Part shown: piece by piece, positions 3,342 through 35,285 of the stretch
Layout: each line of letters begins with the position of its first letter
Numbering within the stretch: position 1 is the stretch's first letter
Assembly (NCBI GenBank): GCA_903824855.1
Contig: CAIJYI010000033.1
Coordinates: forward strand, 1-35,285
From: an uncultured bacterium
Lineage (GTDB): Bacteria > Patescibacteriota > Minisyncoccia > Phycocordibacterales > CAIJYI01
Length of the DNA: 35,285 bases
Direction of reading: 5' to 3'
Notes under the pieces: generated by a model
Database searches by the model: none
What the model was told of the DNA's origin: nothing
Seen by the model: only the letters and a program-made list of their open reading frames with translations
Translations under genes and position numbers: made by a program

Positions 3342-3373
3342 TTTTTTATGCGATACTAATTTATTAACTTTCT

Positions 3374-3868: not shown

Positions 3869-3906
3869 ATTGTTTTACAAGATTTTGAACTCGATTTATT
3901 TACGCT

Positions 3907-7322: not shown

Positions 7323-7408
7323 AAAGCATTTAGTGATTAAATTTTTTAATTTTTTACCTTTTACTGTAGATAATATTTCAGCACTTCGCTGACTCATATA
7401 ATTTTGAA

Positions 7409-7903: not shown

Positions 7904-7907
7904 AAAA

Positions 7908-8420: not shown

Positions 8421-8448
8421 TGTATTTTTACTTTATTTTTTATCCGTA

Positions 8449-9126: not shown

Positions 9127-9150
9127 ATAAGTAATATTTCACTTTTTTCT

Positions 9151-9831: not shown

Positions 9832-9835
9832 ATTT

Positions 9836-11397: not shown

Positions 11398-11411
11398 AAT
11401 TAATATTCTCT

Positions 11412-12014: not shown

Positions 12015-12025
12015 TTTTCTATCAT

Positions 12026-13563: not shown

Positions 13564-13570
13564 TCTTTTT

Positions 13571-14344
13571 TTATTTAAATCTTTCGAAAAGCCAGTCGAT
13601 GTTGTGAATTCTTTTTTCCCAGCGATTATTCAACCAAAAATCTCTAGAATATGCGTTGCCTGCGAGGACTTCTGTACTGCTTACTTTGTGTGTTCTCCCA
13701 AATTTTCGATGTTGGTGAGCGTACCATGTTTTTTTATTCACCATAACCTTTCCTCCACCGAGCCATGTTTTCAGAGCTATCTCAATTGGTTCCTGAGTGA
13801 AAGTTCCATATCCTTCTTCCTGTAATCCACCGAGAAAATCCCAATGCTTGCGCGACATAACCCAACAGGAGCCTTGAAAAACCATATTTTCATCTATAAG
13901 AACATCTTTCCTTGCATTCATCCGACTTGTCCAATGAAGACCGCAGATTCTATCAGGATTAAGTGATAATTTTTCATAGTCTATAGGATTCGGTTCATCC
14001 TCACAGATTACCCATTTATCGGTATCAAGTTTGTACCGTCTCGGAATAACCACCCAATTATCTTCAATATCGGCAAGAAGTTTTACATTGAACCCTTCGT
14101 CAAAAATACAGTGGGAATCGCATTTCAGAATATACTCACCACGAGAAATTGCCACACCTGAATTAACACTATCACGGAGGCCCCTTCTATTTTCATTATG
14201 AATTACTGTCGCACCCGTCACCGGCATTTCGCAACCATCTAAAATAACGATGATTTCAATTTCACCTTTAGCATTTTTACGAATATCATCAATTGTCGGT
14301 TGAAGATACTGATCTCGGTATGAAGGTATGATGATGGATAACAT
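13571..14344 (-). CDS. Family 2 glycosyltransferase
   Basis: This 257-aa GT2 protein has MLSIIIPSYRDQYLQPTIDDI, VILDGCEMP, GLRDSVNSGVAISRGEYI, and the metal motif as DSH (KCDSHCIFDEGF). These are followed by FQGSCWVMSRKHWD, EPIEIALKTWLGGG and KTWYAHQH. It belongs to the same DxH subgroup as the genes at 12706 and 14432 and the middle domain of the 827-aa protein, but is shorter by about 30 residues at the C-terminus (ends NIDWLFERFK). It lies 7 bp upstream of the next gene in transcription order. Confidence 0.87.
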   Translation of the reverse strand: MLSIIIPSYRDQYLQPTIDDIRKNAKGEIEIIVILDGCEMPVTGATVIHNENRRGLRDSVNSGVAISRGEYILKCDSHCIFDEGFNVKLLADIEDNWVVIPRRYKLDTDKWVICEDEPNPIDYEKLSLNPDRICGLHWTSRMNARKDVLIDENMVFQGSCWVMSRKHWDFLGGLQEEGYGTFTQEPIEIALKTWLGGGKVMVNKKTWYAHQHRKFGRTHKVSSTEVLAGNAYSRDFWLNNRWEKRIHNIDWLFERFK

Positions 14345-14431
14345 AATGTTTGAAGATGAAAATTGATAATAGAAAATAAATAATTTGAATTAAACTTCTA
14401 TTTTATTGTCGGGCTATTCTTAATTCTCAAT

Positions 14432-15304
14432 TCACCATTTCCTATCTTTATACCAAATTTGTTCTTTCCAGTTTTCGGGCCAGCCGGGAATTGGCATAAA
14501 TCTTTCTATTAAGCTTATGAAAAAATCTCTGTTTTTATTGAGCCACAGGTCGGCGGCATATATCTGACTTCTTCGCTGGTCATTTTTATTCATGTGGTAC
14601 ATTCTTCCATATTTCGGTCCTTTATGAAGATGTGCGTACCAGGTATTTTTATTGGTCATGACTTCCCCTCCATTCTTTCTTGTTTCAAGATTTATTTCTT
14701 CCGCTTCCTGACCCCAGCCCTGATAGCGAACGTCCATAAATCTTCTTGCATTGAACCAATCTTTCGTCATAAACCAGCACGAGCCCTGTGATGTAAGCGT
14801 CGGATCTATCGGAATGTCCGCGCGATCACGAGATCGTTTATCCCATTTAAAATCATGAATACCTTCGTCATTTTTTAAAAGGCTATCGAATGGAATATAT
14901 TCATAATCGATTGGTGGACGACTATCCGCCTGCACTTGCAGACACCAATTTTCAGCATCCAATCGATGCCGTCTCGGAATCTGCACCCAATTTGGTTTGT
15001 GGTCTTTCGCGAGTTGCTCGTCAAAACCTTTTGCGACCATACAATGCGCGTCCAAACTCATGACGTATTCGCCATGACAGAGTTCAACCATCATATTAAT
15101 ACCTTGTCGCTTATGGCATTTTCCATCACCAAGCGGAATACGAAGATAGTGTACGCGAGGATCATGAACGATTTCTTCTTCGGGCGGTTCATATCCGTCG
15201 AGTATGGGAAATATTTCTATTTCTCCCGTAGCATTTTGCAAGACATCTTCAATTGTCTTTTTAAGAAAAATTTCATTTCTACTTGGAATAGCGATTGATA
15301 ACAT
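14432..15304 (-). CDS. Family 2 glycosyltransferase (first gene of the block)
   Basis: This 290-aa protein is nearly the same as the gene at 12706 over the first 120 residues (MLSIAIPSRNEIFLKKTIED, PILDGYEPPEEEIVHDPRVH, SLDAHCMVAKGFDEQLAKDH). It differs more in the middle (residues 125-160), where the acceptor loop is expected. It has TSQGSCWFMTKDWF and NTWYAHLHKGPKYG. It is the first gene of the minus-strand block. Only 24 bp separate its start from the nearest palindromic repeat, so the promoter must lie in or beyond the repeats; I could not identify a convincing one. Confidence 0.87.
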   Translation of the reverse strand: MLSIAIPSRNEIFLKKTIEDVLQNATGEIEIFPILDGYEPPEEEIVHDPRVHYLRIPLGDGKCHKRQGINMMVELCHGEYVMSLDAHCMVAKGFDEQLAKDHKPNWVQIPRRHRLDAENWCLQVQADSRPPIDYEYIPFDSLLKNDEGIHDFKWDKRSRDRADIPIDPTLTSQGSCWFMTKDWFNARRFMDVRYQGWGQEAEEINLETRKNGGEVMTNKNTWYAHLHKGPKYGRMYHMNKNDQRRSQIYAADLWLNKNRDFFISLIERFMPIPGWPENWKEQIWYKDRKW

Positions 15305-20691: not shown

Positions 20692-21534
20692 TTACTGTTT
20701 TTCTTGAATTGTTTTTTTTAATTCTTCTATCTCTTTTTTCAGTTCCACCATTTTCAGTTCGCGCCCTATCATATGTTGATTTAATTTTTTTAATTCTTCC
20801 ACGCTTGTTCTCGTATTGGTAATATCCCAATTAGTACCAACCATTCGAATGACTTTTCCCGTTTCATCACGTTCAACAATAGCGATAGCCCTAATGTATC
20901 TTACTGTTCCGTCAGGCCAGAGTACTCGAAATTCGGTATCAAACTCTTTTTCACCTTTTATCGCCATTTGTATTTCTTTATCCCCTCTCTCTTTGTCTTC
21001 AGGATGAAGTCCACTTTGCCATGCGTCGTAGGCCCCACTAAATTTATCTGAGGTTACTCCATACAGACGATACATTTGTTCGTCCCAGACCAATTTATTG
21101 TTGATGACGTCATATTCCCAAATACCCACACCTCCGGCACGAGTAGCAAGCTTGAGGCGATCGACGGCTTGGGATAGTCGTTCCTCGGAGAGTTTGATTT
21201 GTGATATGTCTTTCGCAACTCCAAAAAGTGCTGGTTTACCGTCCCATGTTCCGTGAGTAATCCTCGTTTCCACAGGAATCTGCATTTCGGACTTTGTAAT
21301 AATCGGTACAGGGCAAGACTTAGCTTTTCCTGCAATCATTTCCCCTACAATTTTCATGGCTTCATCCCGACGCTCTGCCTGGTGAACCATAAGTACGGAT
21401 TTTCCGACCAATTCTTCCATTGTATATTGAAGACGATTAATGACGGTATCATTTACTGTTATTATGTTTCCCTCCATATCCAGAACAAAAAGAAAATCGT
21501 CGATGGAATTAAAAAAGGCTTTATAGTTCTCCAT
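20692..21534 (-). CDS. PAS-PAS sensor with MxGRE coiled-coil tail
   Basis: This 280-aa cytoplasmic protein has two PAS domains. The first spans about 1-115 (FFNSIDDFLFVLDMEGNI, then VAKDISQIKLSEERL). The second is of the PAS_3 type (124-242; GGVGIWEYDVINNKLVWDEQ, HPEDKER, WPDGTVRYI). A short charged helix follows with LNQHMIGRELKMVELKKE (251-268). There is no histidine kinase, GGDEF or DNA-binding domain. I chose 21534 because MENYKAFF begins the PAS fold; the frame is open to 21582. It is divergent from the sensor at 21711. It probably senses a small ligand and acts by pairing with a kinase, which is inference. Confidence 0.78.
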   Translation of the reverse strand: MENYKAFFNSIDDFLFVLDMEGNIITVNDTVINRLQYTMEELVGKSVLMVHQAERRDEAMKIVGEMIAGKAKSCPVPIITKSEMQIPVETRITHGTWDGKPALFGVAKDISQIKLSEERLSQAVDRLKLATRAGGVGIWEYDVINNKLVWDEQMYRLYGVTSDKFSGAYDAWQSGLHPEDKERGDKEIQMAIKGEKEFDTEFRVLWPDGTVRYIRAIAIVERDETGKVIRMVGTNWDITNTRTSVEELKKLNQHMIGRELKMVELKKEIEELKKTIQEKQ

Positions 21535-21596
21535 AAAAATAAAATAACGATAATAAAATAATACAATATAACTATACCACAAATAACAGCCATGTT

Positions 21597-21648
21597 CTGT
21601 GGAAAAGATTGGAATAACAATGGAATATTACAAAAAAGATTTCCACAG
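21597..21648. promoter_or_regulatory. Inverted repeat between divergent sensor genes
   Basis: CTGTGGAAA (21597-21605) and TTTCCACAG (21640-21648) are perfect 9-bp inverted arms, 34 bp apart, in the 176-bp space between the two divergent sensor genes. They could be a paired operator. They resemble DnaA boxes only loosely. Confidence 0.4.
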
Positions 21649-21710
21649 TTGACGTATCTATTGAATGATATTTGCTGTATTATAAAGGTAATTATAATTC
21701 TTTAATTATT

Positions 21711-23084
21711 ATGAAAATACGAACCCGGCTCTTTCTTAGCTTTTTTTTCATTGCAATATTTCCCATCGCAATAATTTCTGCGATATTTTATTATGATATA
21801 AAGGCGACACTGATAAACGAACAAAAAACGGCGCTTGAGACAATCACAAAATTAAAAATAGATGGCATAAAATCATATTTCGATGCTTCATCCAAAGAAA
21901 TCAGGGTTTCTGATGAACGAATATCATTCCAAGCGACAATTCCGATAATTTCAGCATTATATACAGAGCCCAAAAATCCTCAGTATCAATCGGCTATTAC
22001 TTTATTAAATAGTCAGATATCCTCACTTACAAAGATTCAGACCGAAACAGAAAATGTCCTATTCGTTAATCCTGATGGAATAATTTCCTATTCCTTTACA
22101 AAAGAAGGCCTATTAAAAAACTTTGCCGAACAATTTCCGGAGGTAGGAAAGCTCGTTATGGAAAATGGGAAAAAAGGTTCGTACCAATCCGATCTTTTTC
22201 TTCATAGCATCCACAATGGATCCGATTTCTTCGAAGGAATTCCATTTTATGATTCATCGGGAAAATTTATCGGAATTCTCGTTACAGACATGTTGACAGA
22301 CAAATTGTTTTCTACAATCCAGGGTACTGACGGAATGGGAAACACCGGCGAAACCCTTCTTGTTCGTCTGATTTCCGGCACAGAGTCTGATGCAAAATTA
22401 AAAAATAATTTTAATCCTAAAGGTGATACAGTTTTATTTATTAACACCCTTCGATTCGACCCAAATTCCTCATTTAAGAAAACCATCAAGATTGGAAGTC
22501 AAAATGGCACCGCCGCACAGAACGCAGCACTGGGAAAAACAGGCTCGGGCATAGGCGTTGATTATCGAGGAGTCCAAGTACTCACAATATATAGAGATTT
22601 ACCGGAATATAATTTGGGATTGGTTACTAAAATCGACATGTCGGAAATATTGGTTCCCTTTTATGCTCTTCTAAATAAATTATATATTGCACTTATTTTT
22701 ACTCTCTTAATAGTAATTGTCCTCTCTATCATTTTTTCTAATTTGGTATCTTCCCCAATCCGAGAGATCACGGAGGCTGCGATAAGAATCGGTAAGGGTG
22801 AAAAAAATATTTCCTTCAGTAAAAAACTGACGTCATCTCAAAATGAAATTGGGGTGCTCGCCTCAACGTTAGCTAATTCAATAAAAGAACTTGATTCTCT
22901 TAATGCTGATATCGAAAGAAAAATCACCGAAAGAACGGCGGATGTGACAAAAAAAGAAAAAGATATTGAAGAAAAATTTGAAAAAATTGCAACCATGAAT
23001 AAAATGATGGTCGGGCGAGAATTGGAGATGGTAAAATTAAAACAGGAAATTGAGAAATATAGAAGATCATCTACAAATACATAA
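21711..23084 (+). CDS. Membrane Cache-type sensor with HAMP and MxGRE tail
   Basis: This 457-aa protein has a first transmembrane helix at about 8-28 and an extracytoplasmic sensor of about 290 residues of dCache appearance. NVLFVNPDGIISYSF, FFEGIPFYDSSGKFIGILV and GETLLVRL are the usual landmarks. A second helix (324-345) and a HAMP domain starting SSPIREITEAAIRIGKGE follow. The cytoplasmic end is a coiled coil with MMVGRELEMVKLKQE (432-446). There is no catalytic output domain, so signalling must pass to a partner, probably the kinase 31 bp downstream in the same operon. The start at 21711 is chosen over 21672 because it gives a normal basic N-terminus before the helix. Confidence 0.8.
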   Translation: MKIRTRLFLSFFFIAIFPIAIISAIFYYDIKATLINEQKTALETITKLKIDGIKSYFDASSKEIRVSDERISFQATIPIISALYTEPKNPQYQSAITLLNSQISSLTKIQTETENVLFVNPDGIISYSFTKEGLLKNFAEQFPEVGKLVMENGKKGSYQSDLFLHSIHNGSDFFEGIPFYDSSGKFIGILVTDMLTDKLFSTIQGTDGMGNTGETLLVRLISGTESDAKLKNNFNPKGDTVLFINTLRFDPNSSFKKTIKIGSQNGTAAQNAALGKTGSGIGVDYRGVQVLTIYRDLPEYNLGLVTKIDMSEILVPFYALLNKLYIALIFTLLIVIVLSIIFSNLVSSPIREITEAAIRIGKGEKNISFSKKLTSSQNEIGVLASTLANSIKELDSLNADIERKITERTADVTKKEKDIEEKFEKIATMNKMMVGRELEMVKLKQEIEKYRRSSTNT

Positions 23085-23115
23085 AATATAAGGCCTGAAA
23101 AAATATACGCCTCTT

Positions 23116-24609
23116 ATGAAAATCAAAATAAAAATAGTTCTAATTTTTTTACTTTTCGCTATCTTCTTCCTGACGGCGGGAATGATTTTCCTTAATTTTA
23201 TTCAATATATTTCTTTTCCTACGTCGATGATTATTCTATCATCGTTGATTATATTTGTTTTGGTTTTAATAATTTATTTCTATATAACAAAAAGTTCTCG
23301 ACACACGGATAATTCCGAGGCTCCGACATTACCGCCATCAAATGACGTTGAAAAATTAATTGACGCAAAAACAGAACAAATTCATAACGATGAAGTTACT
23401 ATTGAAGACCAACAAACGGCCATTCTTAATGTTTTGCAGGATGTACAAAAAGAGAAAGATATTTCAGAAGTTTTAGCGAAAGAATTGGAAAAATTCAAAC
23501 TGGCGGTAGAGGGTGCCTATGACCATATCGTCATTACCAATTCTGATGGGGTTATACTATTTGCGAACCAAGGAGTTGAAAATATTACCGGTTTTACCAA
23601 AGAAGAAGTCATCGGGAAAAAAGTGGGAAGCAAGGAGACATGGGGCGGTTTAATGGAACCGGAATTTTATCGAAATTTATGGGATACCGTAAAAGTGCAA
23701 AAAAAGGTCTTTACCGGAAATCTGAAAAATCATAGAAAAAATGGCGAAAAATATGACGTACTTGCAAGTATCTCACCCATTTTAGATAACAACGGTAATG
23801 TTTTATTCTTTGTCGCCATTGAACATGATGTTACGAAGGAGAAGGCGGTGGACAAAGCAAAGTCAGAATTTGTCAGTTTGGCCTCTCACCAGCTTCGCAC
23901 ACCGGTTTCTTCAATAAATTGGTACACAGAAATGCTTCTTAATAGCGAAGTCGGCGCGATTAATGACGATCAAAAAAGGTATCTGAGCGAAATATACACG
24001 AGTAGTAAACGCATGGGTGACCTCATCAATTCCCTCCTCAATGTTTCTCGAATTGAGTTAGGGACTTTTGCCGTCGACATCAAACTCGTAAACATAAACA
24101 TTCTTGCAAAAAAAGTTATTGCAGATCTTGCCCCTAAGATTATGGAGGATAATATATCATTCAAGGAATCATTTGATGATAATATTTCTGAGATTAATGC
24201 GGATGAAAAGCTTCTGCGTATGATATTGGAAAATATTTTATCGAACGCCATCAAATATTCAAACAAGGGAGGTCAGATTAATTTTGCAATACATACCGCT
24301 GATATCGGTTCAGACTTTGGAGGAAAAAAGCTTGCTGAAAAAAACATAACTATACTCATTTCAGATGAAGGAATCGGGATTCCCATCGAGCAACATGAAA
24401 AAATATTTACCAGGCTCTTTAGGGCAGATAATGCCGCGGCATCAAGACCGGAAGGTACCGGACTAGGTCTTTACATCGTTAAATCGATTGTGGACCAATC
24501 AGGGGGGCAAATATGGTTCACTTCGGAGGAAAATAAAGGAACAACCTTTTATGTGACCTATCCAATGTCTGGAATGAAGAAGAAAGAAGGCACAAGGGCA
24601 TTGATATAG
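23116..24609 (+). CDS. Membrane PAS sensor histidine kinase
   Basis: This 497-aa protein has two transmembrane helices (about 5-28 and 37-58), a coiled segment (75-130) and one PAS domain (128-243; FTKEEVIGKKV, FFVAIEHDVT). A HisKA domain carries the phosphoacceptor in SHQLRTP (H258). The ATPase domain has N box LENILSNAIKYS, G1 DEGIGIP (417-423) and G2 GTGLGLYIVK (447-456). It ends SGMKKKEGTRAL, a tail shared with the 851-aa kinase. There is no extracytoplasmic sensor domain, so input may come from the upstream Cache protein through their coiled coils. The cognate receiver is probably the one at 24697 or 28519. Confidence 0.92.
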   Translation: MKIKIKIVLIFLLFAIFFLTAGMIFLNFIQYISFPTSMIILSSLIIFVLVLIIYFYITKSSRHTDNSEAPTLPPSNDVEKLIDAKTEQIHNDEVTIEDQQTAILNVLQDVQKEKDISEVLAKELEKFKLAVEGAYDHIVITNSDGVILFANQGVENITGFTKEEVIGKKVGSKETWGGLMEPEFYRNLWDTVKVQKKVFTGNLKNHRKNGEKYDVLASISPILDNNGNVLFFVAIEHDVTKEKAVDKAKSEFVSLASHQLRTPVSSINWYTEMLLNSEVGAINDDQKRYLSEIYTSSKRMGDLINSLLNVSRIELGTFAVDIKLVNINILAKKVIADLAPKIMEDNISFKESFDDNISEINADEKLLRMILENILSNAIKYSNKGGQINFAIHTADIGSDFGGKKLAEKNITILISDEGIGIPIEQHEKIFTRLFRADNAAASRPEGTGLGLYIVKSIVDQSGGQIWFTSEENKGTTFYVTYPMSGMKKKEGTRALI

Positions 24610-24615
24610 CACTGA

Positions 24616-24674
24616 AATATAAAATTAAAAATAAACACCTTCGTTTTGAAGGTGTTTATTTTTAATTTTATATT
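24616..24674. terminator. Long bidirectional Rho-independent terminator
   Basis: A perfect 27-bp stem with a 5-nt loop (GTTTT, 24643-24647). The core ATAAACACCTTC/GAAGGTGTTTAT is flanked by A-rich and T-rich arms, so it can act in both directions. It lies between the converging kinase (ends 24609) and receiver (ends 24697). Confidence 0.88.
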
Positions 24675-24696
24675 CTTAATTATCACGTCTCATCTA

Positions 24697-25077
24697 CTAT
24701 TCCATTTTAAGGGTCTGCTTAATTTTTATAGCGACGTCAGCGAGTTTCCAATCAGCTTTTATGAGATACTCTTCGTGTCCGAGAGAGCCAACCAATTTCA
24801 TCTTTTCTTTGTCATCGAGCGTCATATTGGTAAGGATAATAACAGGGACATTTTTTCCCCATTCATTTTCTGCTCGTAATTTTTGAAGCATGGTTAGGCC
24901 ATCCATTCTCGGCATGATAATATCAAGAAGAATCAAGTCCGGCTGAAATTTGGTAGCCTGTGTCAGACCCTCTTCTCCGTTTGCTGCCGTCTCAACCTCG
25001 AAGCCGTCTCGCGTAAATTTCTCCGTCATCGCTTTTCGCGCCGACACTTCGTCTTCAACAATAAGTAACTTTTTCAT
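24697..25077 (-). CDS. Single-domain response regulator
   Basis: This 126-aa receiver domain has all key residues: acidic pocket E8/D9, phospho-acceptor D52 in LILLDIIMPRMDG, T83 in VIILTNM, and K107 in EYLIKAD. No output domain follows. It would act as a phosphate relay or by protein contact, as in CheY- or Spo0F-like regulators. It is the last gene of a three-gene minus-strand unit (PAS protein, kinase, receiver), 40 bp after the kinase, which makes the 851-aa kinase its likely partner. Confidence 0.93.
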   Translation of the reverse strand: MKKLLIVEDEVSARKAMTEKFTRDGFEVETAANGEEGLTQATKFQPDLILLDIIMPRMDGLTMLQKLRAENEWGKNVPVIILTNMTLDDKEKMKLVGSLGHEEYLIKADWKLADVAIKIKQTLKME

Positions 25078-25117: not shown

Positions 25118-27673
25118 TTATGATAAGAGTTCTACGGAACCTTCCTTCTTAATCATACCAGAAAGAGGTATTGAAAAGAAGAATGATGTCCCCACAGGAT
25201 ATTCCTTTCCCTTCTCATCTTTCCTCATAGTGACGGGGGAGGTAAAACCGAGTTTTCCATTCCAACTTTCTACTACGGACTTTGTCATATTTAGACCTAT
25301 TCCCGTTCCGTCAGAGTCTATTTCTTTGGCATTGTCTGATCTAAAGAGTTTGGTGAATATTTTTGATTGATCTTTTTTTGGAATTCCTATTCCATTGTCG
25401 GTTACATCGATTATTAGATTCTGGTCATCTTTCTTTACAGAAACGATAATTTTCCCATTCTCAGGAGTGTAATCCGATGAATTTGAAAGAAGATTATCCA
25501 TGACAATGTTAAAGAGTTTTTTGTCTATGTTGATTGAGGGCAAATTTTCTTCAACTGTAACTTCGTAAGATAAATTCTTTTTCTCAAACGATAATCGATA
25601 TGAACTAAGTATCTCGTCTATGACATTTTTGATTTCATAGATCTCAGGAGATATTATAAACGTCCCCATTTCAATTCTGGAAATATTCAACAACATAGAA
25701 ACAATGGACCACATTCTCCTGTTTGAATGAAAGAGTTCTTGCGCATAATCTTTCTGCTTTTCGTTCAATTCCCCCACCTCTCCGGATAACAACATTTCCA
25801 GGAACCATGCGGACGTGGATATCGGGGTGCGTAATTGATGCGATGCGAGCATGACAAACTCACTCTTAGCACTGTCTATTTTGCGCTCCGCTGTGGCATC
25901 GGAGAAAACAATGACGGCACCTTGCATTTTTCCTTCCAAATTCTTAATGGGTGAAATACTGTCGGAAATAGGAATAATAACGCCGTCTTTTTTACGCAGA
26001 CTCGCATGGAAACCCAATTTTTCAGTCAAACCGTTCTCTAGCGTTAATTTTATAAAGGAATTTCGCTCACTATGTTCATCCGAACAAAAGTACATTGTTT
26101 CAGAGAAATGTTTCCCTAGAACTTCAGATTTACTCCAACCGGTCAGATTCTCTGCGGCAGGGTTAAAAAATATTACTTCCCCCGCCATATTTACAACAAA
26201 AATTCCGTCAGCAATACTCGTGATGATAGCTTCGATTTTATTTTTTGATTCTTCGAGGTTCTTTTTCTCAAGAGAAAGGTCGCTCAAAATGGATACCATC
26301 GCCTTTCTCATTGCCTCCGTTCGTGAATCTTCAAGATTATGATAACTTATGATGTTATCAATAGCCACGACTGTTGAATCAAACGTATCTTTAGAAGTTT
26401 CGATATTACTCGCCTCGATAACACTCAAAGGGGTATACGCTGATAATTTTTTCTTTGTGGATTCCGCAAAGTTTAGCAAAGAATATAATTTACCTCTTTC
26501 TTTCGTTACATCTCTAAAATACCATACTCTTCCCAAATATTTATTATTTTCATCAATCAACGGCGATGAATAACGCTCGAAGATTCTTCCGTCTTTCAGT
26601 GAGATGTCGTCACGACTTTTTTTGGCCTTATTTTCATAGAGTTCCTTTACCTTTACCCTAAATTCATCAGGGTTTTCAAGTTTTTCTGAAACGTAGTTCA
26701 ATAAAAGTTCATCCGATTTTGTCGCAAGGACATCTTCCGGTATGGACCAGATTTGTGTAAAATTATGATTACAAGAAACAACTTTACTATTCTCATCAAC
26801 GACGAGAATCCCGTCCATTGAGGATTCCAGAACAGTCTTCAGAAGTAAGATACGAAATGATTTTTCTTGTTCTGCTTTTTTTTCTGCTGAAATATCTCTG
26901 ACAACAGCCTGCAGAGAGACATCTTTACCTCGATTAATTCTCGTAAGAAATACCATTGCGGAAAAATCTTCGCCGTTGTATTTTTTGTGAGTCCATTCAA
27001 AAATATTGCTTCCGTCATGAACCGCCTTCTCTATCATTTCTTTGGCTTTTTCTGAGGATAATTTTCCATCAGGCTGGTATTGGGGAGAAAGATTCCATGG
27101 TCCGATGGAAGTGAATTCTGATTCATCCGCTATGTTAAACATTTTAAAAGCGGTATCGTTTCCTCCGGTAAATTTCCAATCAGGCGGAGCCAAACGCATT
27201 ATTGCATCCGATGAATTTTTGTATATCGCGCTTATTTCCTGATCCTTTATTCGAAGGTCCTCCCACGCCATCTTCACATCATCCGATCCGACGAGTATCA
27301 TAAGTAGGATGTGATCCTTTTCTCCGATTCGCACACTCTTCGCATTGAGAAATGTTTTATACTCATCGCCATTTTTTCGTACAAAAGAAGTCTGAAAATT
27401 TACTACCTCGCCTTTCTCTTTCAAAATTTTTGATATTTCCAAACGATCATTTGGGTTTGAGTATGTAAGAAATATATCATCGGAAACATCTGAATTCTCA
27501 TTGTAGCCAAAAGCACGTAATAATGCTTTATTTACATATATCAGACTTGTATCATCAGCGACAATTCCAATCGGGTAAGGAAAAAGATCAAAAACAGCGG
27601 ATGCTATTTCACTACTCCAAACAAATGGATGATTGATTATATTTTTACCTATACTATTTTCGGGTAATATCAT
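25118..27673 (-). CDS. Soluble histidine kinase with four PAS domains
   Basis: This 851-aa protein has PAS-like domains at about 25-130, 145-265, 278-392 and 475-598. The last is the most typical (IADGIFVVNMAGEVIFFN, LTGWSKSEVLGKHF, SDATAERK). HisKA follows with SHQLRTP (H612), and then a HATPase with N box DNLLSNSSDYT, G1 DNGIGIP (759-765) and G2 GTGIGLNMTK (789-798). A helical stretch (395-475) sits between PAS3 and PAS4. There are no transmembrane helices. It ends SGMIKKEGSVELL. It lies 28 bp downstream of a membrane-anchored PAS protein and 40 bp upstream of its probable receiver. The ligands of the PAS domains are unknown. Confidence 0.92.
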   Translation of the reverse strand: MILPENSIGKNIINHPFVWSSEIASAVFDLFPYPIGIVADDTSLIYVNKALLRAFGYNENSDVSDDIFLTYSNPNDRLEISKILKEKGEVVNFQTSFVRKNGDEYKTFLNAKSVRIGEKDHILLMILVGSDDVKMAWEDLRIKDQEISAIYKNSSDAIMRLAPPDWKFTGGNDTAFKMFNIADESEFTSIGPWNLSPQYQPDGKLSSEKAKEMIEKAVHDGSNIFEWTHKKYNGEDFSAMVFLTRINRGKDVSLQAVVRDISAEKKAEQEKSFRILLLKTVLESSMDGILVVDENSKVVSCNHNFTQIWSIPEDVLATKSDELLLNYVSEKLENPDEFRVKVKELYENKAKKSRDDISLKDGRIFERYSSPLIDENNKYLGRVWYFRDVTKERGKLYSLLNFAESTKKKLSAYTPLSVIEASNIETSKDTFDSTVVAIDNIISYHNLEDSRTEAMRKAMVSILSDLSLEKKNLEESKNKIEAIITSIADGIFVVNMAGEVIFFNPAAENLTGWSKSEVLGKHFSETMYFCSDEHSERNSFIKLTLENGLTEKLGFHASLRKKDGVIIPISDSISPIKNLEGKMQGAVIVFSDATAERKIDSAKSEFVMLASHQLRTPISTSAWFLEMLLSGEVGELNEKQKDYAQELFHSNRRMWSIVSMLLNISRIEMGTFIISPEIYEIKNVIDEILSSYRLSFEKKNLSYEVTVEENLPSINIDKKLFNIVMDNLLSNSSDYTPENGKIIVSVKKDDQNLIIDVTDNGIGIPKKDQSKIFTKLFRSDNAKEIDSDGTGIGLNMTKSVVESWNGKLGFTSPVTMRKDEKGKEYPVGTSFFFSIPLSGMIKKEGSVELLS

Positions 27674-27701: not shown

Positions 27702-28331
27702 TTAGACAGTTTTCTTCCCCTTCAACTTCTCAATTTCACTCTTTAGTTTTTCGACTTCTTCTCTGAGTTCAATTACGCGCATCTCTCTGCCTATCATTAA
27801 ATCATTCATTTCGGAAAGTTCTTCAACTTTTTCATTGAGAGATTTTTCTATTTCTTTTCTCCGAGTAATGTCGTGCATAATTCCACAAATTTGAAACGGC
27901 TTCCCATCCTTATGAATAACGGATGTATTAATTTCAAGCATCAAAGGGACACCGTCTTTTCTCTTAATCTGTAATTCAACCGGATTTAACTCGATATTGT
28001 TTTGAACCTTAGAAAATAAAACTGAAATTCTGTTTCTCTCGCTTTCATGAATGAACGATTGAATATTTTTTCCGTTTACCTCGGACCCGACGAAAAGTAA
28101 TTTTTTTTCGGCAGACGGCGAATGATAGATTATGTTTCCTTTCAAATCGGCAAGAAAAGCCATGTCTTTGCTTACATCGACGATTTCGCGAAAAGTGAAA
28201 TCGCTCAACCCAAGCTTTTTTTGAAGATCTATTTTTTGTTTGAGGATATAGGTAATAATCAAAGAAAGCGCGCCTATAAGGTAGCCGTGAAATGCGTGAT
28301 TGTATATTATAAAATCAGTGATTGGAGACAT
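27702..28331 (-). CDS. Membrane-anchored PAS protein with MxGRE tail
   Basis: This 209-aa protein has an N-terminal transmembrane helix (about 13-30, ALSLIITYIL), one PAS domain (45-158; MAFLADLKGNIIYHSPSAEKK, RKDGVPLMLEI, GIMHDITRRKEIE), and a coiled-coil tail with MNDLMIGREMRVIELREE (175-192). As in the sensors at 20692 and 21711, no kinase or other output domain is present. It probably pairs with the soluble kinase encoded next to it. It is the first gene of the PAS-kinase-receiver unit. Confidence 0.82.
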   Translation of the reverse strand: MSPITDFIIYNHAFHGYLIGALSLIITYILKQKIDLQKKLGLSDFTFREIVDVSKDMAFLADLKGNIIYHSPSAEKKLLFVGSEVNGKNIQSFIHESERNRISVLFSKVQNNIELNPVELQIKRKDGVPLMLEINTSVIHKDGKPFQICGIMHDITRRKEIEKSLNEKVEELSEMNDLMIGREMRVIELREEVEKLKSEIEKLKGKKTV

Positions 28332-28518: not shown

Positions 28519-28890
28519 TTAGCTTATGTGTGCGATGGCGTTGTTTACTTTTTCTACAACCTCGTTTATAGGATGCTGTGATTTTACGAGATAATCGATG
28601 GCGCCCAATTTGATGGATTCTTTGATTTGATCGTCGCCGTCGAGATTAGAAACCATAATGACGGGAATATGTTTTACTTCGGCATCGGACTTTAATTCTC
28701 TTAAAATCTCCAATCCGGTTTTCTTCGGGAGGATAATATCAAGCAAGATAATATCCGGCATAAATTTCTTAACTGACGCTAAAACAAGGTCTCCCGTAAA
28801 GACAGATTCTACGGTGAATCTTTCGCGTTCAAATTTTTCGCGGAATACTTTGGATAGGGATTCTTCGTCTTCTGCAATGAGTATTTTCAT
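28519..28890 (-). CDS. Single-domain response regulator
   Basis: This 123-aa receiver has E7/D8 in the acidic pocket, D51 as phospho-acceptor (IILLDIILPKKTG), S81 in VIMVSNL at the Thr/Ser site and K103 in DYLVKSQ. There is no output domain. It follows the cohesin-type gene by 34 bp on the same strand and is followed by a strong terminator, so it may share the transcript of the surface proteins. Which kinase phosphorylates it cannot be told; both kinases nearby have the same SHQLRTP type. Confidence 0.93.
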   Translation of the reverse strand: MKILIAEDEESLSKVFREKFERERFTVESVFTGDLVLASVKKFMPDIILLDIILPKKTGLEILRELKSDAEVKHIPVIMVSNLDGDDQIKESIKLGAIDYLVKSQHPINEVVEKVNNAIAHIS

Positions 28891-28924: not shown

Positions 28925-30376
28925 TTATTTGCGGGCAATATCCCGAATATTGTCGACGATATATTTCTTTGTCTTCCCTGCTTTTTCTTTGATTTTCTTG
29001 GCGGTAAAAATAACTTCGTTCAAATCTTTGGCTCCAATTTTTCCTTCCTTGGTCAGCGCTAAAATCTTATCTGCGTCATTTCCCATTATATCAAATGTAT
29101 CTCCAATGTCACGCTCGGCAATAAGTATTCTTCTTTCCAGCTGTTTATTCCACATCATGTATGAATACCACCATAATCCAAATATCAGAACAAGAATACA
29201 GATTATTATAACAAAAAATTGTGATTGCGTAAGAGTGAATGAACCGATAGCAACATAGACGTTCTCTAAAATCGTCATGTTAATTGAAGTGCTCGTTTTA
29301 TTCCCTGCCATATCAGCTGCGGAGACTGTGACTAGGTGCTTTCCTGATGATAACGGAGATAATGTATATGATGTGAGATTAGTCGTTGTGGCATCCTTTC
29401 CATCGATAGAAACGAGATACGATGCGACGCCGGAAGGCTGGTCATTTGTTTGAAATGAGATAGTTGGTGATAGGACGCCGGTAGTTAGTCCTTCTTTCGG
29501 TATTACATTAAATGACAAAGGAGGAACCGTATCTATACCAATCTGGTAATCGGCGACTGTTCCCCAGCCGACATCGTTTTTGAATCTTACATGAAGATAC
29601 CAGACGCCATCGGTCAGATGGTCAAATGTTTTATTATTGAAAAGTCCTTCGGAAGTTTTAACATCAGAAACAGGATTTTGATTGATTGCGGTTGCGACAT
29701 CGGTAACGTCCGTCGGGAGTTGCCAACGAACAATGAAGGAAGAGATGGTATTATACCAACCCTGTGATGTCGGATAAAGAGGAACTTCAATAACAGGTTT
29801 AACCGGAAGTTTTCCCGTCGGGACGGCAGGGCGACTAATTATTTGTACCGCAGGGATTTTCGGTGCAGGAATAATCAGTGAAGCTTGCTGTTTGGTAATA
29901 CTGGTAATATTCAAACCGGTCATCGTGGTTAAGACGTTGGTTCCATTTCCATCGCTCGCAGTAATGGCACCGTCTGTGAATGCAATATTTGCAGGGCCGG
30001 AACCGACTACTTTAAAAGTGACGCGAAGAATTTGGAGAGTTTTTCCATCAACTCCGCTCAATGTATCGGAACCGCCGATAAAAGAGACCTTCCCTGCCGT
30101 ATTATCTGCAATCGGATCCTGCAACCAGAAGGAGAAAACAGAATTTGCTTTGTCTGTTGATTTTTCCTGTAATACATTTACCGGGAAATTTATGGTTGCT
30201 TGCGCGGCGTTAATTCCGATATTTTCGCTATTGATTTTTACATCAACGGAAAATTCGTCACCTATGGCGAATTGCGTTTTGTCGGTAACGAGATTGAGCG
30301 TCCCGGCAAAAGCCGACGGAATCATCGCAAAAAATGCAATGGCACCGACTATGAGAAATCTAAAATGTTTTTTCAT
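28925..30376 (-). CDS. Membrane-anchored cohesin-type surface protein
   Basis: This 483-aa protein has a signal peptide (1-24, ending AFA). A cohesin-like domain spans about 26-160 (TLNLVTDKTQFAIGDEFSVD, INAAQATINFPVNVLQ, AGKVSFIGGSDTLSG, ILRVTFKVVGSGPANIAF, ASDGNGTNVL). A Pro-rich linker (165-200) is followed by two Ig-like domains (205-282 and 285-370; the second has PSGVASYLVSIDG and VSAADMAGNKTSTS). A transmembrane helix (386-409) precedes a charged cytoplasmic tail of about 74 residues. Cohesins bind dockerins in a calcium-dependent way. The neighbouring giant protein ends in a dockerin, so this is a plausible surface anchor for it. The sizeable cytoplasmic tail is unusual for a plain anchor and may bind a partner. 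Confidence 0.8.
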   Translation of the reverse strand: MKKHFRFLIVGAIAFFAMIPSAFAGTLNLVTDKTQFAIGDEFSVDVKINSENIGINAAQATINFPVNVLQEKSTDKANSVFSFWLQDPIADNTAGKVSFIGGSDTLSGVDGKTLQILRVTFKVVGSGPANIAFTDGAITASDGNGTNVLTTMTGLNITSITKQQASLIIPAPKIPAVQIISRPAVPTGKLPVKPVIEVPLYPTSQGWYNTISSFIVRWQLPTDVTDVATAINQNPVSDVKTSEGLFNNKTFDHLTDGVWYLHVRFKNDVGWGTVADYQIGIDTVPPLSFNVIPKEGLTTGVLSPTISFQTNDQPSGVASYLVSIDGKDATTTNLTSYTLSPLSSGKHLVTVSAADMAGNKTSTSINMTILENVYVAIGSFTLTQSQFFVIIICILVLIFGLWWYSYMMWNKQLERRILIAERDIGDTFDIMGNDADKILALTKEGKIGAKDLNEVIFTAKKIKEKAGKTKKYIVDNIRDIARK

Positions 30377-30417
30377 AATATTTTACTTATAATTAATTAA
30401 TTTTTATGACATCCCCC

Positions 30418-30457
30418 GACGTGGATTCCGGCTCCCAAGCCGGAATGACGTGTCGAG
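30418..30457. repeat. REP-like palindrome, type C
   Basis: This is a perfect 9-bp hairpin, ATTCCGGCT/AGCCGGAAT (30425-30433/30438-30446), with loop CCCA, framed by CGACGTGG and GACGTGTCG. It is the same family as the repeats at 3-108 but with different, compensated stem bases. It lies in the 83-bp gap between the dockerin and cohesin genes and has no adjacent T-tract, so it is not a classical terminator. Confidence 0.8.
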
Positions 30458-30459
30458 TT

Positions 30460-33400
30460 TTATTTTAATTTAAGAGTTCTCACAAAGATGCTTAAATCTT
30501 GTACATCTACTTTTCCGTCTCCGTTCAAATCATCTTTAATTCGTACTTTCGCATCCGTTGATTGCCATCTGACAACAAACATACTCCAGTCAGTTATATT
30601 TACAATTCCGTCTCCGCTAAAATCCATGTTCGGTGTGAAAATATTTACGACGGAGAATATTTCTTGAGGAGAGTAATCACTCTTTAATCCTGCAGGGCTA
30701 ATCTGTCTCGTGCGAATGGTGTGACTTCCAAAATCGAGTGCTACGGTCGGTACGAGTGCTTTATAGTGACCATTTGCATCTGCGGTGACCGTCGGCAAGA
30801 TTGGTTGATTATCGACTTCTATTTCAACCTTATAATTTGGCGCTGCTTCACCGCTTATCCCGAGTACATCGCCTTTGGTGGCTGCAGTCCTAGCGAGTGC
30901 GAGTGTCGGGGAAAGCAAGATTCCATTTACGTCGAGCTGGAGATTCGCATTGGCCATATTTGCATCAAATATTTTTACCTGTGTCGCATTATTGTTTTTA
31001 TCGATACCGACGACTGCATAGGATCGCGCGTTTCCTGTTAATCCATTGAATGATAGATTGAAGCTCGCTGTTGTATTAGCCACACCCGTCTGGTTTTGTG
31101 TTCCACCGGCACCACCGATAGCAATGACGTTTAAATTAGCTCCCGGGAACGCTTTTCCGGTGAAATGAATTCCGGAAATGGCAGGGTTATAGTAGACCGT
31201 TGTTCCACCACCTCCTCCGACACTCACGATTGGTGCGACGACATCAAAGGTGAGAGTTCTTGTCGATAAAATATTGAGTCCGGTGGAAGAGCTATCAACA
31301 AGTGATAGAGTTATTGTTTCAGCGACGGCATCATTGATATCAATCGTTCCGACTCCGTTGATGATAGTTACCACTCCGGCACCGGTAGCAGAACCGGTCG
31401 TATGAAGTGTGACATTATGATTATAGGTAGCATCGACATTTCCTGCTCCGTCTTCAGCACGGACAGTCACGGTAACCGGAATATTAACCGTTGAATTCGT
31501 TACCGGCTGAATAATGAATCGTGTTGCAACTATTGAGGATGAAGAAACGAGAACAGAATCAGTATCAGAAGTTATTGTTGGACCGTCTGATACGGTGATT
31601 GTCCATGTCCCGAGAGCTTCTTCGTAATACCAGACATGTGCTTCTGAATTACCTTCAGCGAAAACTGCGACTGAAGTAGTAAAACCTCCGGTTACTGCGT
31701 CGTAAAACTTACCTGAGGCTGACCCTGAATCGGTAGAGATATTGGCTGATACGATTCCTGAAGTAACAGGATTGTCGTATGCATCGGTGCGTGTAATTGT
31801 ATATTCAAGTCTCGTTCCCGCTGTCATGTTTCCCGGATGATCTATAAAGAATTTTGCAATCGCCCCGGGGAGAACGTTGAATGTTTTCGTCGCGGTGGCT
31901 GCTCCAATCGAGGCAGTGACGGTGACGGAATCAGCCAGTTCATCGTAATACCAGAAATTTACAGTGGAATTTCCGTCGAGAATATTTACCGTGGTCGGTA
32001 TAACACTTCCTCCGATTGCTGAATCATAGAATCTTCTGTTTGCACTGAGAGATGAAGTGTTGAGAGTGATTGGAGTGACTCCACTCGTAATGAGATTTCC
32101 ATATTGATCTTTACGCGTTACGGTGAATTGAAGGCGATCACCTGCTGCTGTATCTCCAGCCGTTACCAAGAATATTTGAGCAACTGTCCCCGTAGCGAAT
32201 ACAGCGGAAGCGGTTGATGAATGATCAAGTGTCGGGTGTTCGGTGTCAGAGAGAGAAAGGTTGGTTGTTTCTGCGGTGTGGTCGGAAATATCAATGGTAC
32301 CGACACCGAGATTCAATGGTACTGAACCATGTATCGGAGTAGCGGAACCGGTAGTGTTCAAGGTGACGTTTCCGGATATTGTGGTATCAACATTGCCGGC
32401 ATCGTCTACTGCTTTTACGGTGATAGTGATTGGACCATCAACAGTACCCGAGGCAATTGGTGTTTGAATAATAAGTTTTGTTGCAACAATCGGGGCTGGA
32501 TTTACCAAAACTGCGATGGTGCCGTCGGTGACACCAAGAACTCCGTTTGATGCGGTAACGGTGTAGTTTCCGGAAGTTTCTTCATAATACCAGAACGATG
32601 CGGAGGATGAACCATCAGCAATAGTGATGGAGGTGATGGAGGTTCCGCCGGTCGATGCATCATAGAAAAACCTGTTTGTGCCGAGTACACCTGCTGTCGT
32701 CGAAAGATTGAGAACTGAGGATCCGGAAGTAACAAGATTTGCAAATTGATCTTTGCGGACTACGGTATAACCTATTCTCGTTTTTGCTGTCATTGCCGGT
32801 GAGCCACTCAAAGTGAATGAACTAACGGCACCGGGAACTACAGAAAGAACATTAATGCCATTACTGATTCCGGACGTTCCGGATGCGGTAATAGTTATTG
32901 AACCGGGGGTTTCATCGTAATACCAGAAATTTACGCTCTGTTGTCCGTCGGGAATAATTATGGAAGTGATAACAGAACTTCCGGTTTCGGAATCGTAGAA
33001 TTTTTTATTTGCTCCTCCATTACTGCTCAAATTGACGGTGATATCTCCTTGTGAAGTGAGATTTCCAAATTGGTCTTTTCTTGTAACGGTATATGCCGCA
33101 CGACTTCCGGCAGAAAGCGGAGTCGGGCTATTCAAAGAGAATTGAGTGGTTGCTCCACCGTGGAATGTGACGTCGGCGGTAGAATCAACGTTAAGAGTCG
33201 TGTGCTCGGTATCAGAAAGTGAAAGATGAATTGGCTCGGCGACGGTGTGAGTAACCGATCTTGATCCTGTTCCTCCGGATATGTTTACAAGACCTGCGCC
33301 TACGGCGGAACCGTTTATCAATAATGTTACGTCATCGACATAACTCGTGTCGATTGAACCGTCAGCTTTTTGTGCTTGTACCGTAACAGTGACCGGTGAA

Positions 33401-35285
33401 TCAACGCTGTGTGTAGCATCGGTGAGGATGACAAATTTTGTTGCGGAATAGGTAACGCTAAATGAAACATAGTTTGAAACTCCACCGCCCGGTGCAGAAT
33501 TTGTGACGGTGATGCGCGCACTTGATGTAGCGAGAAGCATGTCCGATGCGGGAATAAGCGCGGTAAGTCTTCCTGTGTTTACAAAGGTTGTAACACGAGC
33601 ACCTCCATTAAAATTAACAGTAGATGAAGGTATAAAATTACTTCCGTTTACCGTAAGTGTAAAGTCGGGATCAGTAGTATGTTTCGAAGACGGGTCGATG
33701 GTTGAAATTACCGGAACAGGATTCACGAGTGTGACGGTTACAGGGTCGGAGGTGATGACATTATAATTTGAGTCACCGGCTTTTGTTGCGGTAACTCCAC
33801 ATGTTCCGGATACATCAGAGACATTTAATGTTGTACCTAAAGTAATATTACATCCGGTTGAAAGTCCGGCTGAGAAAGTAACATCGCCTGAGCTTGATCC
33901 TCCTAATGAAGACAATACAGCAGTCGAACCGTAAGCAACCGTTGATGGTGTTACGACGGCGGTAAGCGCCGACTGATTAGCTTTTTCTAAAGTGACGGAT
34001 GCTGGAGACGAAGTGATTTCATAGTAGTTTGCGTCAGCAGCCATAGTGGCAGTGATGGCACATGATTCGGAAGCATTTGAGACATTCAAGACTGTCCCCC
34101 CGGTAATATTACATCCCGTTGATGCTCCAACTGAGAATGTGACGGCACCTGTTCCTGAACCTCCGCTTTTTGTTAATGCTGCAGTGTTTCCGAACGTGAT
34201 GGTTGACGGAGTAACAATGGCCGTAAGCGGTGATTGATTAGCTTTTTCTAAAGTAACGAGTACCGCATCTGATGTTTTAGGTTCGTAATCTGAATCACCG
34301 GCTTTTGTGGCAGTGACAGAGCAAGTACCGGATGCGTTTGAGACATTTAATGTAGTTCCCAATGTGATATTACAACCGGTTGATCCTCCTGCTGAGTATG
34401 TAACAGTTCCCGATCCTGATCCTCCACTCGAACCGAGAGTAGCAGTCGAGCCATAAGCGAGGGTTGAAGGAGTAACGGTGGCAGTCAAAGTTGCTTGGTT
34501 CGCTTTGGTTAAGGTAACGGTTACGGGAGCAGAGTTTGCAACATTGTAATTTGTGTCAGCTGCTCTGGTTGCAGTAACAGCACAGGTACCGGAAGCATCT
34601 GAGACATTTAATGTTGTTCCCAAAGTAATATTACAACCGGTTGATCCTCCGACTGAAAATGTAACGGAACCTGTTCCTGAACCTCCACTATAAGTTAACT
34701 CAGCAGTTGTTCCAAAAGCAACCGTTGAAGGAGTGACAATTGCAGTAAGGGTCGCCTGATTAGCTTTTGCTAATGTTACCGAAGCAAGAGAAGAAGTGAT
34801 TTCGTTGTAGTTTGTATCGCCGGCTTTTGTGGCGGTAACGGCACAAGTTCCTGAAGCGTCAATTACATTCAAAGTTGTTCCTCCCGAAATGTTACAACCG
34901 GTTGAAAGTCCAACAGAGAATGTGACGGCACCTGTTCCTGAACCTCCGCTTGAAGATAGGGCTGCGGTTGTTCCATAAGTGACGGTCGAAGGATTAACAA
35001 TAGCGATAAGCGTTGCTTGATTGGCGGTAGTAATAACTCCGGTACTGATAGCGAACGGAACGGTGACGGTGTAGTTTGCCTGATCAGCGCCACCGAGAGT
35101 AACGGCAGAAATAGTAATCGTTTTTCCGGTGCCGGCAGTTGCCGTGTCGTAGGTTGAACTAATGGAAGCGACATTAACAGACTCGAGTCCGATAACTCCA
35201 CCGAGTGTTCCGCCTGAGAGATTGGCGGTGTTGTTTCCGTCGTATGGTTTGGAAGTTCCTGACATCGCGGAGACAGTGAGAGCAA
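30460..35285 (-). CDS. Giant repeat surface protein with C-terminal dockerin (5' partial)
   Basis: The frame runs off the right edge; 1601 residues are counted here from the ATG at 35265, but codons continue upstream (ALTVSA before it). It starts inside a YDG-type domain (SKPYDGNNTANLSGGTLGG). Five 87-aa repeats follow (81-515), each with two Cys 17 residues apart. An IPT/TIG-like domain (518-604) comes next, then alternating Ig-like repeats (608-703, 927-1024, 1246-1342) and four RKDQxGNL...FWYYDE repeats (from about 705, 812, 1026, 1135). After a Gly hinge (1349-1354) come two beta domains and a type I dockerin (1546-1601). Its calcium loops are D1548/S1550/D1552/N1556/D1559 and D1579/N1581/D1583/D1587/D1590. 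It is a fibre-like exported protein; the signal peptide is expected outside the window. Confidence 0.88.
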   Translation of the reverse strand, partial: ALTVSAMSGTSKPYDGNNTANLSGGTLGGVIGLESVNVASISSTYDTATAGTGKTITISAVTLGGADQANYTVTVPFAISTGVITTANQATLIAIVNPSTVTYGTTAALSSSGGSGTGAVTFSVGLSTGCNISGGTTLNVIDASGTCAVTATKAGDTNYNEITSSLASVTLAKANQATLTAIVTPSTVAFGTTAELTYSGGSGTGSVTFSVGGSTGCNITLGTTLNVSDASGTCAVTATRAADTNYNVANSAPVTVTLTKANQATLTATVTPSTLAYGSTATLGSSGGSGSGTVTYSAGGSTGCNITLGTTLNVSNASGTCSVTATKAGDSDYEPKTSDAVLVTLEKANQSPLTAIVTPSTITFGNTAALTKSGGSGTGAVTFSVGASTGCNITGGTVLNVSNASESCAITATMAADANYYEITSSPASVTLEKANQSALTAVVTPSTVAYGSTAVLSSLGGSSSGDVTFSAGLSTGCNITLGTTLNVSDVSGTCGVTATKAGDSNYNVITSDPVTVTLVNPVPVISTIDPSSKHTTDPDFTLTVNGSNFIPSSTVNFNGGARVTTFVNTGRLTALIPASDMLLATSSARITVTNSAPGGGVSNYVSFSVTYSATKFVILTDATHSVDSPVTVTVQAQKADGSIDTSYVDDVTLLINGSAVGAGLVNISGGTGSRSVTHTVAEPIHLSLSDTEHTTLNVDSTADVTFHGGATTQFSLNSPTPLSAGSRAAYTVTRKDQFGNLTSQGDITVNLSSNGGANKKFYDSETGSSVITSIIIPDGQQSVNFWYYDETPGSITITASGTSGISNGINVLSVVPGAVSSFTLSGSPAMTAKTRIGYTVVRKDQFANLVTSGSSVLNLSTTAGVLGTNRFFYDASTGGTSITSITIADGSSSASFWYYEETSGNYTVTASNGVLGVTDGTIAVLVNPAPIVATKLIIQTPIASGTVDGPITITVKAVDDAGNVDTTISGNVTLNTTGSATPIHGSVPLNLGVGTIDISDHTAETTNLSLSDTEHPTLDHSSTASAVFATGTVAQIFLVTAGDTAAGDRLQFTVTRKDQYGNLITSGVTPITLNTSSLSANRRFYDSAIGGSVIPTTVNILDGNSTVNFWYYDELADSVTVTASIGAATATKTFNVLPGAIAKFFIDHPGNMTAGTRLEYTITRTDAYDNPVTSGIVSANISTDSGSASGKFYDAVTGGFTTSVAVFAEGNSEAHVWYYEEALGTWTITVSDGPTITSDTDSVLVSSSSIVATRFIIQPVTNSTVNIPVTVTVRAEDGAGNVDATYNHNVTLHTTGSATGAGVVTIINGVGTIDINDAVAETITLSLVDSSSTGLNILSTRTLTFDVVAPIVSVGGGGGTTVYYNPAISGIHFTGKAFPGANLNVIAIGGAGGTQNQTGVANTTASFNLSFNGLTGNARSYAVVGIDKNNNATQVKIFDANMANANLQLDVNGILLSPTLALARTAATKGDVLGISGEAAPNYKVEIEVDNQPILPTVTADANGHYKALVPTVALDFGSHTIRTRQISPAGLKSDYSPQEIFSVVNIFTPNMDFSGDGIVNITDWSMFVVRWQSTDAKVRIKDDLNGDGKVDVQDLSIFVRTLKLK
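33721..35025. repeat. Five tandem 261-bp coding repeats
   Basis: Five in-frame copies of an 87-codon unit without any length change, starting with codons for ANQ (residues 81, 168, 255, 342, 429 of the giant protein). Each contains GCNI and a second Cys 17 residues later. The copies have diverged but keep exact length, so they are old or under selection. Confidence 0.9.

Follow-up and report, generated by a model that had tools for sequence, protein, structure and literature searches.

What can be read from two adjacent genes of an uncultured member of the Patescibacteria that encode opposite halves of a known protein-docking pair? The stretch of DNA analyzed here (the window) is an entire contig, C33, of 35,285 bp from a 1.1-Mb genome. 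On its minus strand a gene for a fibre protein ending in a dockerin domain lies directly upstream of a gene for a membrane protein with an N-terminal cohesin domain, and 83 nt separate the two. We propose, with a probability of roughly 0.8, that this pair is the plug and socket of a docking system for a surface fibre. An initial annotation made from the sequence had suggested a noncellulosomal cohesin–dockerin pair at this locus; that observation is confirmed and is stronger than first stated, and the positions and lengths it gave for the two genes were correct. The features of the pair, with the evidence for each, are as follows.

28925..30376, minus strand: cohesin anchor protein, 483 aa, with signal peptide, cohesin, immunoglobulin (Ig)-like domain, transmembrane helix and cytoplasmic tail (sequence and Pfam scan)
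30305..30376, minus strand: signal peptide, residues 1-24, recognized in the sequence by its n-region (KKHFR), its hydrophobic core and AFA before G
29897..30304, minus strand: cohesin domain, residues ~25-160 (modelled fold, fold searches and family profile match)
29270..29470, minus strand: bacterial Ig-like domain (Big_13), residues 303-369 (Pfam PF19077, E=1.9e-6)
29153..29218, minus strand: putative transmembrane helix, residues ~387-408 (hydropathy)
28928..29149, minus strand: cytoplasmic tail, 74 aa, with an AERDI signature, likely a helical hairpin by sequence reading (tail family specific to the regulator-linked subclass)
30460..35283, minus strand: fibre protein of 1,607 aa that ends in a dockerin and lacks its N-terminal part (open at contig end)
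30472..30627, minus strand: dockerin domain (PF00404, 25.7 bits; confident helices in a modelled ortholog)
30589..30624, minus strand: calcium loop 1, DFSGDGIVNITD (sequence)
30496..30531, minus strand: calcium loop 2, DLNGDGKVDVQD (sequence)
33454..33720, minus strand: choice-of-anchor Z repeating domain of the fibre (NF058597, E=5.9e-25)
33764..35022, minus strand: about five Ig-like (Big_3_5-like) tandem repeats of ~87 aa in the fibre, 261-nt period (Pfam and repeat analysis)
35062..35283, minus strand: YDG domain, probably the last of an array cut by the contig end (PF18657, E=1.1e-15)

Domain identity of the two proteins

The signal peptide, the C-terminal membrane helix and the tail of about 74 aa earlier ascribed to the cohesin protein are all readable in its sequence, with cleavage predicted between AFA and GT. 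AlphaFold (AF2), run on residues 25-164 of the window protein together with 24 relatives, returned a predicted local distance difference test score (pLDDT) of 94.8 and a predicted template modelling score (pTM) of 0.88. All 50 best Foldseek matches to the domain are cohesin entries (best E 4e-9), and structural alignment with VIA-align gave Z scores of 16.2 (2w1n), 16.1 (2vo8 and 6kgc) and 15.5 (2xdh). At the sequence level, a profile search of the PDB yielded weak cohesin matches (E 0.05-0.35), and 9 of the 24 relatives match the Pfam cohesin family PF00963 (best E 2.1e-7). As modelled, the N-terminal domain is thus a divergent cohesin with the jelly-roll cohesin fold. The initial annotation had staked its case on such a fold, and the AlphaFold model and the fold searches both return one. 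The closest named relative of the gene, at 79% identity, comes from a "Candidatus Parcubacteria" from Lac Pavin (L032), which places the window genome in the Patescibacteria.

On the dockerin side, ligand positions 1, 3, 5, 9, and 12 are filled in both loops (position 3 of loop 1 is Ser), i.e., both calcium loops are complete, just as had been noted. The two duplicated calcium-binding loop-helix motifs of a type I dockerin are present, the loops being complete in the window and the helices modelled in the ortholog. The match to PF00404 (Dockerin_1) is borderline overall, with 21.2 bits (E=3.4e-4) in a single-protein scan, just under the gathering score, and 25.7 bits against a gathering cut-off of 22.9 in the genome search. 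The earlier description of a giant dockerin-bearing fibre holds in part: the dockerin is present at the C-terminus, but the contig edge cuts the window copy, and full length and signal peptide are visible in relatives only. A complete ortholog in the genome of a sister species (G001) has 3,054 aa, a signal peptide and 12 matched YDG stretches; the window copy shows one YDG domain and about five Ig-like repeats, and repeat content therefore differs between sister species. The 13 dockerin proteins tested for modules carry Ig, fn3 (24 repeats in L041), YDG (12 stretches in L014) or beta-helix modules, and no glycoside hydrolase or other enzyme was found on them. Nor is there a glycoside hydrolase among the window open reading frames (ORFs) scanned, in keeping with the earlier account.

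Linkage and subclasses across genomes

How consistently do the two domains occur together, and in what arrangement? We searched an order-level sample of 197 genomes with cohesin and dockerin profiles. The dockerin profile was found in 81 genomes, the cohesin profile in 75 and both in 61 (Fisher p=5e-20), leaving 20 genomes with dockerin only and 14 with cohesin only. In 67 of the 68 dockerin places whose contig has a listed cohesin, the two lie on the same strand; a cohesin lies within 1.5 kb downstream in 55 places and 49-300 bp downstream in 44. Seen from the cohesin side, 85 of 91 testable nonfused cohesin groups have a same-strand dockerin ORF upstream. Two antisense hits of the iterated dockerin profile (L017 and L055) were spurious, and a neighbour had to share the strand to be counted here. 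In the full set of 112 groups, a few of which stem from overlapping or redundant loci, that ORF is less than 60 nt away in 70, within 1 kb in 11, further away in 4 and missing in 6, while the remaining groups comprise 9 fused cohesin–dockerin ORFs and 12 cut by a contig edge. The linkage extends beyond the order: elsewhere in the phylum 67 genomes contain both domains (p=2e-10), and 20 of 22 sampled same-contig pairs from other classes have the same gene order. The cohesin profile itself was found in 100 of 380 genomes phylum-wide, compared with 75/197 in the order.

The nine fused ORFs (239-287 aa, two of them from overlapping loci) would make most sense if the two domains bind in trans, and such small proteins are possible adaptors that could extend a chain. 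Small proteins with both domains lie at L058:3393-4112, L059:1740-2543, L089:1764-2519, L096:1752-2612, L100:1812-2564, L114:3339-4055, L117:699-1475 and L127:1761-2531; a couple of response-regulator genes directly precede the fused gene in both L100 and L114 (two in each).

Two subclasses of the system can be distinguished by layout. The commonest locus consists of a dockerin gene followed by cohA (~300 aa) and cohB (~590 aa), whereas the window type has a dockerin gene and a single cohesin. The window genome holds both, the single-cohesin form on C33 and the dockerin–cohA–cohB form on contig C5. A count of further dockerins in the genome had been suggested earlier; there is one more dockerin protein, on C5, where two more cohesin proteins are encoded side by side. 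This second operon (L004:5677-7933 and 4536-5726) encodes a 445-aa Ig/dockerin protein (L004:6599-7933) and then two membrane cohesins (L004:5677-6657 and 4536-5726). A C-terminal transmembrane helix is present in 25/25 single cohesins, 47/48 cohA proteins and 47/48 cohB proteins, so that nearly every cohesin has the membrane anchor. Cytoplasmic tails are mostly 3-24 aa long in cohA and mostly 66-92 aa long in single cohesins and cohB.

The two dockerins of the window genome are 29% identical, each being closer to its own subclass in other genomes, and the cohesins behave likewise. Across loci, distances between cohesins correlate with distances between their dockerin partners (Mantel r=0.52, p<=5e-4; 0.70 and 0.55 within the subclasses), a correlation that stems in part from the common ancestry of linked genes and that supports binding but does not prove it. 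Because each partner lies nearer its own subclass elsewhere and partner distances are correlated, the two systems appear to travel as matched units. From their sequences, we predict the C33 and C5 pairs to be orthogonal, without cross-binding.

Several variants stand beside these layouts. At L037:6784-9384 one membrane protein of 867 aa bears two cohesins and forms a mini-scaffoldin, and the cohB anchor at L040:7875-9614 has a coiled-coil-like cytoplasmic tail of ~240 aa instead of the usual ~80. A third class of dockerin proteins (334 and 194 aa), at L015:5266-6991 and L018:7039-8352, has as its neighbour a highly divergent cohesin-like protein of ~234 aa with a C-terminal transmembrane helix and no Pfam match. 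Upstream of the C5 system, on the same strand, L004:8880-11984 encodes more than 1,034 aa that consist largely of SPSxSPS repeats and run off the contig.

Proposed fibre docking and its alternatives

How might the pair work? In the mechanism we propose, the cohesin protein would be exported, with its C-terminal helix keeping it in the membrane and the cohesin displayed outside. The long Ig/YDG-repeat fibre would be exported too. Two calcium ions would fold the dockerin at its C-terminus, and this dockerin would bind the cohesin encoded next door, keeping the fibre on the cell noncovalently, in a calcium-dependent manner and without sortase. The repeats would probably adhere to another cell or surface. 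A noncellulosomal pair that anchors a long fibre is supported by the agreement of fold, an operon conserved in about 75 genomes, co-occurrence, and module content. We favor display of a surface fibre over digestion because the anchors have a C-terminal transmembrane helix and the 13 dockerin proteins tested carry Ig, fn3, YDG, or beta-helix modules and no enzymes. The data show the cohesin fold, the dockerin loops, a membrane anchor in family members, and the conserved gene order and co-occurrence; binding within the pair, its calcium dependence, adhesion and the host-bound use raised in the initial annotation are inferred.

Several observations weigh against this interpretation. PF00963 gives no match in the window protein or anywhere in its own genome; we hold to the cohesin assignment because the fold is unambiguous and relatives do match the family. 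The N-terminal 604 aa of the sister fibre were not found elsewhere in the window genome, in a search run without a positive control, and the window fibre lacks its N-terminus. A linked-chain AlphaFold model of the orthologous G001/L032 pair, in which glycine took the place of the stop codons (a device for modelling that corresponds to no real protein) and the artificial linker contained the signal peptide, folded both domains well but, at a pTM of 0.55, produced no confident interface and thus speaks neither way on binding. A dockerin without a detected cohesin is found in 20 of the 197 genomes. Finally, the idea that docking is a simple replacement for sortase finds no support at the level of the order, where sortase and cohesin show no anti-correlation (28/75 vs. 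58/122, p=0.18) and do not exclude each other. Within the window's own family, sortase was found in 0 of 4 genomes, which does not fit a sortase-anchored adhesin.

Could the same domains serve another end? The cohesin might capture dockerin proteins of a neighbouring or host cell, instead of or besides the cell's own fibre, much as cohesin–dockerin complexes have been proposed to mediate partner adhesion in consortia of anaerobic methanotrophic archaea (ANME) and syntrophic sulfate-reducing bacteria (SRB) (PMC10553843, PMC9012536). However, the same cells carry the dockerin gene directly upstream of the cohesin gene, and the two neighbours agree in subtype, which favors docking in cis and makes a link between cells unlikely. 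Somewhat less probable still is that the cohesin-fold domain binds a glycan or other ligand and not the dockerin, adjacency to the dockerin gene reflecting mere co-expression of surface genes. Cohesins share their jelly-roll fold with carbohydrate-binding modules, and the linked-chain model predicted no interface, but near-universal adjacency, correlated divergence and the fused ORFs speak for a dockerin partner. A polymer-degrading enzyme complex of the cellulosome kind would use the same domain pair, and one chain, in L037, does bear two cohesins; we nevertheless regard this as very improbable. Neither dockerin-bearing hydrolases, among the 13 dockerin proteins and the scanned window ORFs, nor a scaffoldin combining multiple cohesins with a carbohydrate-binding module was found, nearly every anchor has one cohesin, and the three cohesin proteins of the window genome have one domain each.

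Fibre docking of this kind has partial counterparts in known systems. The cellulosomal cell-anchoring scaffoldins SdbA of Clostridium thermocellum and ScaE of Ruminococcus flavefaciens share the cohesin fold (2bm3, Z 13.3; 2zf9, Z 11.4) and likewise present a surface anchor protein that receives a dockerin; here, however, the cargo is a repeat fibre rather than an enzyme scaffold, and the partner is encoded next door. Those scaffoldins are held by S-layer homology (SLH) domains or sortase, whereas the patescibacterial anchor is a transmembrane helix with a long cytoplasmic tail. The closest structural matches (Z 16) are the cohesin-like modules of the Clostridium perfringens GH84 and GH33 enzymes (2w1n and 2vo8), where the cohesin sits on a glycoside hydrolase. 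Archaeoglobus fulgidus, which is not cellulolytic, has a noncellulosomal cohesin of the same fold (2xdh, Z 15.5). We know of no conserved fibre operon described for it.

Noncellulosomal cohesins and dockerins have been described before (Peer et al. 2009, cited by PMC9012536), and they have been proposed for polymer breakdown in Cloacimonadota (PMC8542988) and for a giant Omnitrophota protein (PMC10066038). The ANME/SRB proteins are noncellulosomal too, but form variable scaffoldin-like sets, and the available portions of those papers (PMC9012536 and PMC10553843) report no conserved operon of dockerin fibre and transmembrane cohesin. Within the Patescibacteria, the envelope protein SEML1_0315 of Southlakia epibionticum, reported to be essential, has a dockerin; its authors speculate on targeting of host glycans and mention no cohesin (PMC10633639). 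TMEM132 proteins combine cohesin and Ig domains and are described as cell adhesion molecules; they are human and animal proteins, with no dockerin fibre operon in the sections seen (PMC6030884). A search of the open literature (without subscription journals and preprints) gave no account of a patescibacterial operon of dockerin fibre and transmembrane cohesin, of its subclasses or of a response-regulator link, and a membrane-anchored, signalling-linked operon of this kind thus appears to be undescribed there.

The organisms concerned are tiny, probably host-associated Patescibacteria, and the pair bears on host attachment and contact sensing. Most ultra-small Patescibacteria lack genetics. A conserved pair of small soluble domains in about a quarter to two fifths of the sampled genomes makes direct tests with recombinant domains possible, and the two predicted orthogonal pairs in one genome, together with a defined cytoplasmic tail and regulator, offer a way to probe contact signalling. 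If the docking reading is true, it moves cohesin–dockerin from digestion to attachment across a whole radiation.

The signalling neighbourhood

Downstream of the cohesin gene, the window continues with signalling genes on the same strand.

28519..28890, minus strand: stand-alone CheY-like response regulator that directly follows the cohesin gene and has E7/D8, D51, S81 and K103 (PF00072, E=5e-21; recurrent neighbour)
27702..28331, minus strand: membrane PAS protein (PF13426)
25118..27673, minus strand: PAS histidine kinase that may partner the regulator (domains HisKA, HATPase_c and PAS)
24697..25077, minus strand: second stand-alone response regulator (PF00072, E=2e-22)

Of the 25 single-cohesin systems, 13 have a CheY-like gene on the same strand no more than 1 kb away, compared with 0 of 55 multi-cohesin systems (p=1.7e-8; the 13 systems come from about ten families, and the counts are not fully independent). 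Response regulators number 1-12 per genome in eleven genomes checked, and two of the sampled genomes (G158 and G189) have just two apiece, both of which flank the system. A tail profile trained on other taxa scored 23.5-67 bits for each regulator-linked tail but at most 16.8 bits (median 6.0) for cohB tails. Because this cross-validated profile separates the two, the single-cohesin subclass with CheY-like neighbours is, as judged from sequence, the holder of its own family of ~74-aa tails. The AxRD tail signature was spotted after the fact, and the profile is the stronger test.

These patterns raise the possibility of a regulated or sensing adhesin, a refinement of fibre docking in which the cohesin tail would couple the fibre to response regulator and PAS kinases, through outside-in contact signalling or inside-out control. 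The skewed distribution of CheY-like neighbours, the flanking regulators of G158 and G189 and the cross-taxon tail family point this way; on the other hand, neither the proximity of the genes nor the resemblance of the tails amounts to proof of contact, the regulators may instead control transcription or pili by way of the kinases, and cohB tails are similarly long without linked regulators. We hold the refinement to be possible, with the odds clearly against it. The fuller picture of a sensory docking machine—the fibre dockerin plugging into the membrane cohesin while the tail signals to a response regulator and PAS kinase of its own, so that the cell would sense or control attachment through this bond—is a shade more doubtful. 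The initial annotation had remarked that the tail could transmit tension or signals; this is now a concrete hypothesis with circumstantial support, the tail family occurring, by its profile, only in the CheY-linked subclass. If the sensory reading is true, such a use of cohesin–dockerin was not met in the literature searched.

Further signalling genes lie in the window at 20692-25077: a double PAS protein (minus strand), a HAMP/dCache-like sensor (plus strand) and a PAS histidine kinase (plus strand). A promoter-like near-consensus site (GTGACA-16-TATAAT with TG; 29085-29112, minus strand) falls in the 3' end of the cohesin gene, upstream of the regulator; such sites are as numerous in the region as chance predicts. 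At the other end of the window, 858-15304 is occupied by a long minus-strand run of glycosyltransferase and Methyltransf_24 genes, likely a surface-glycan cluster.

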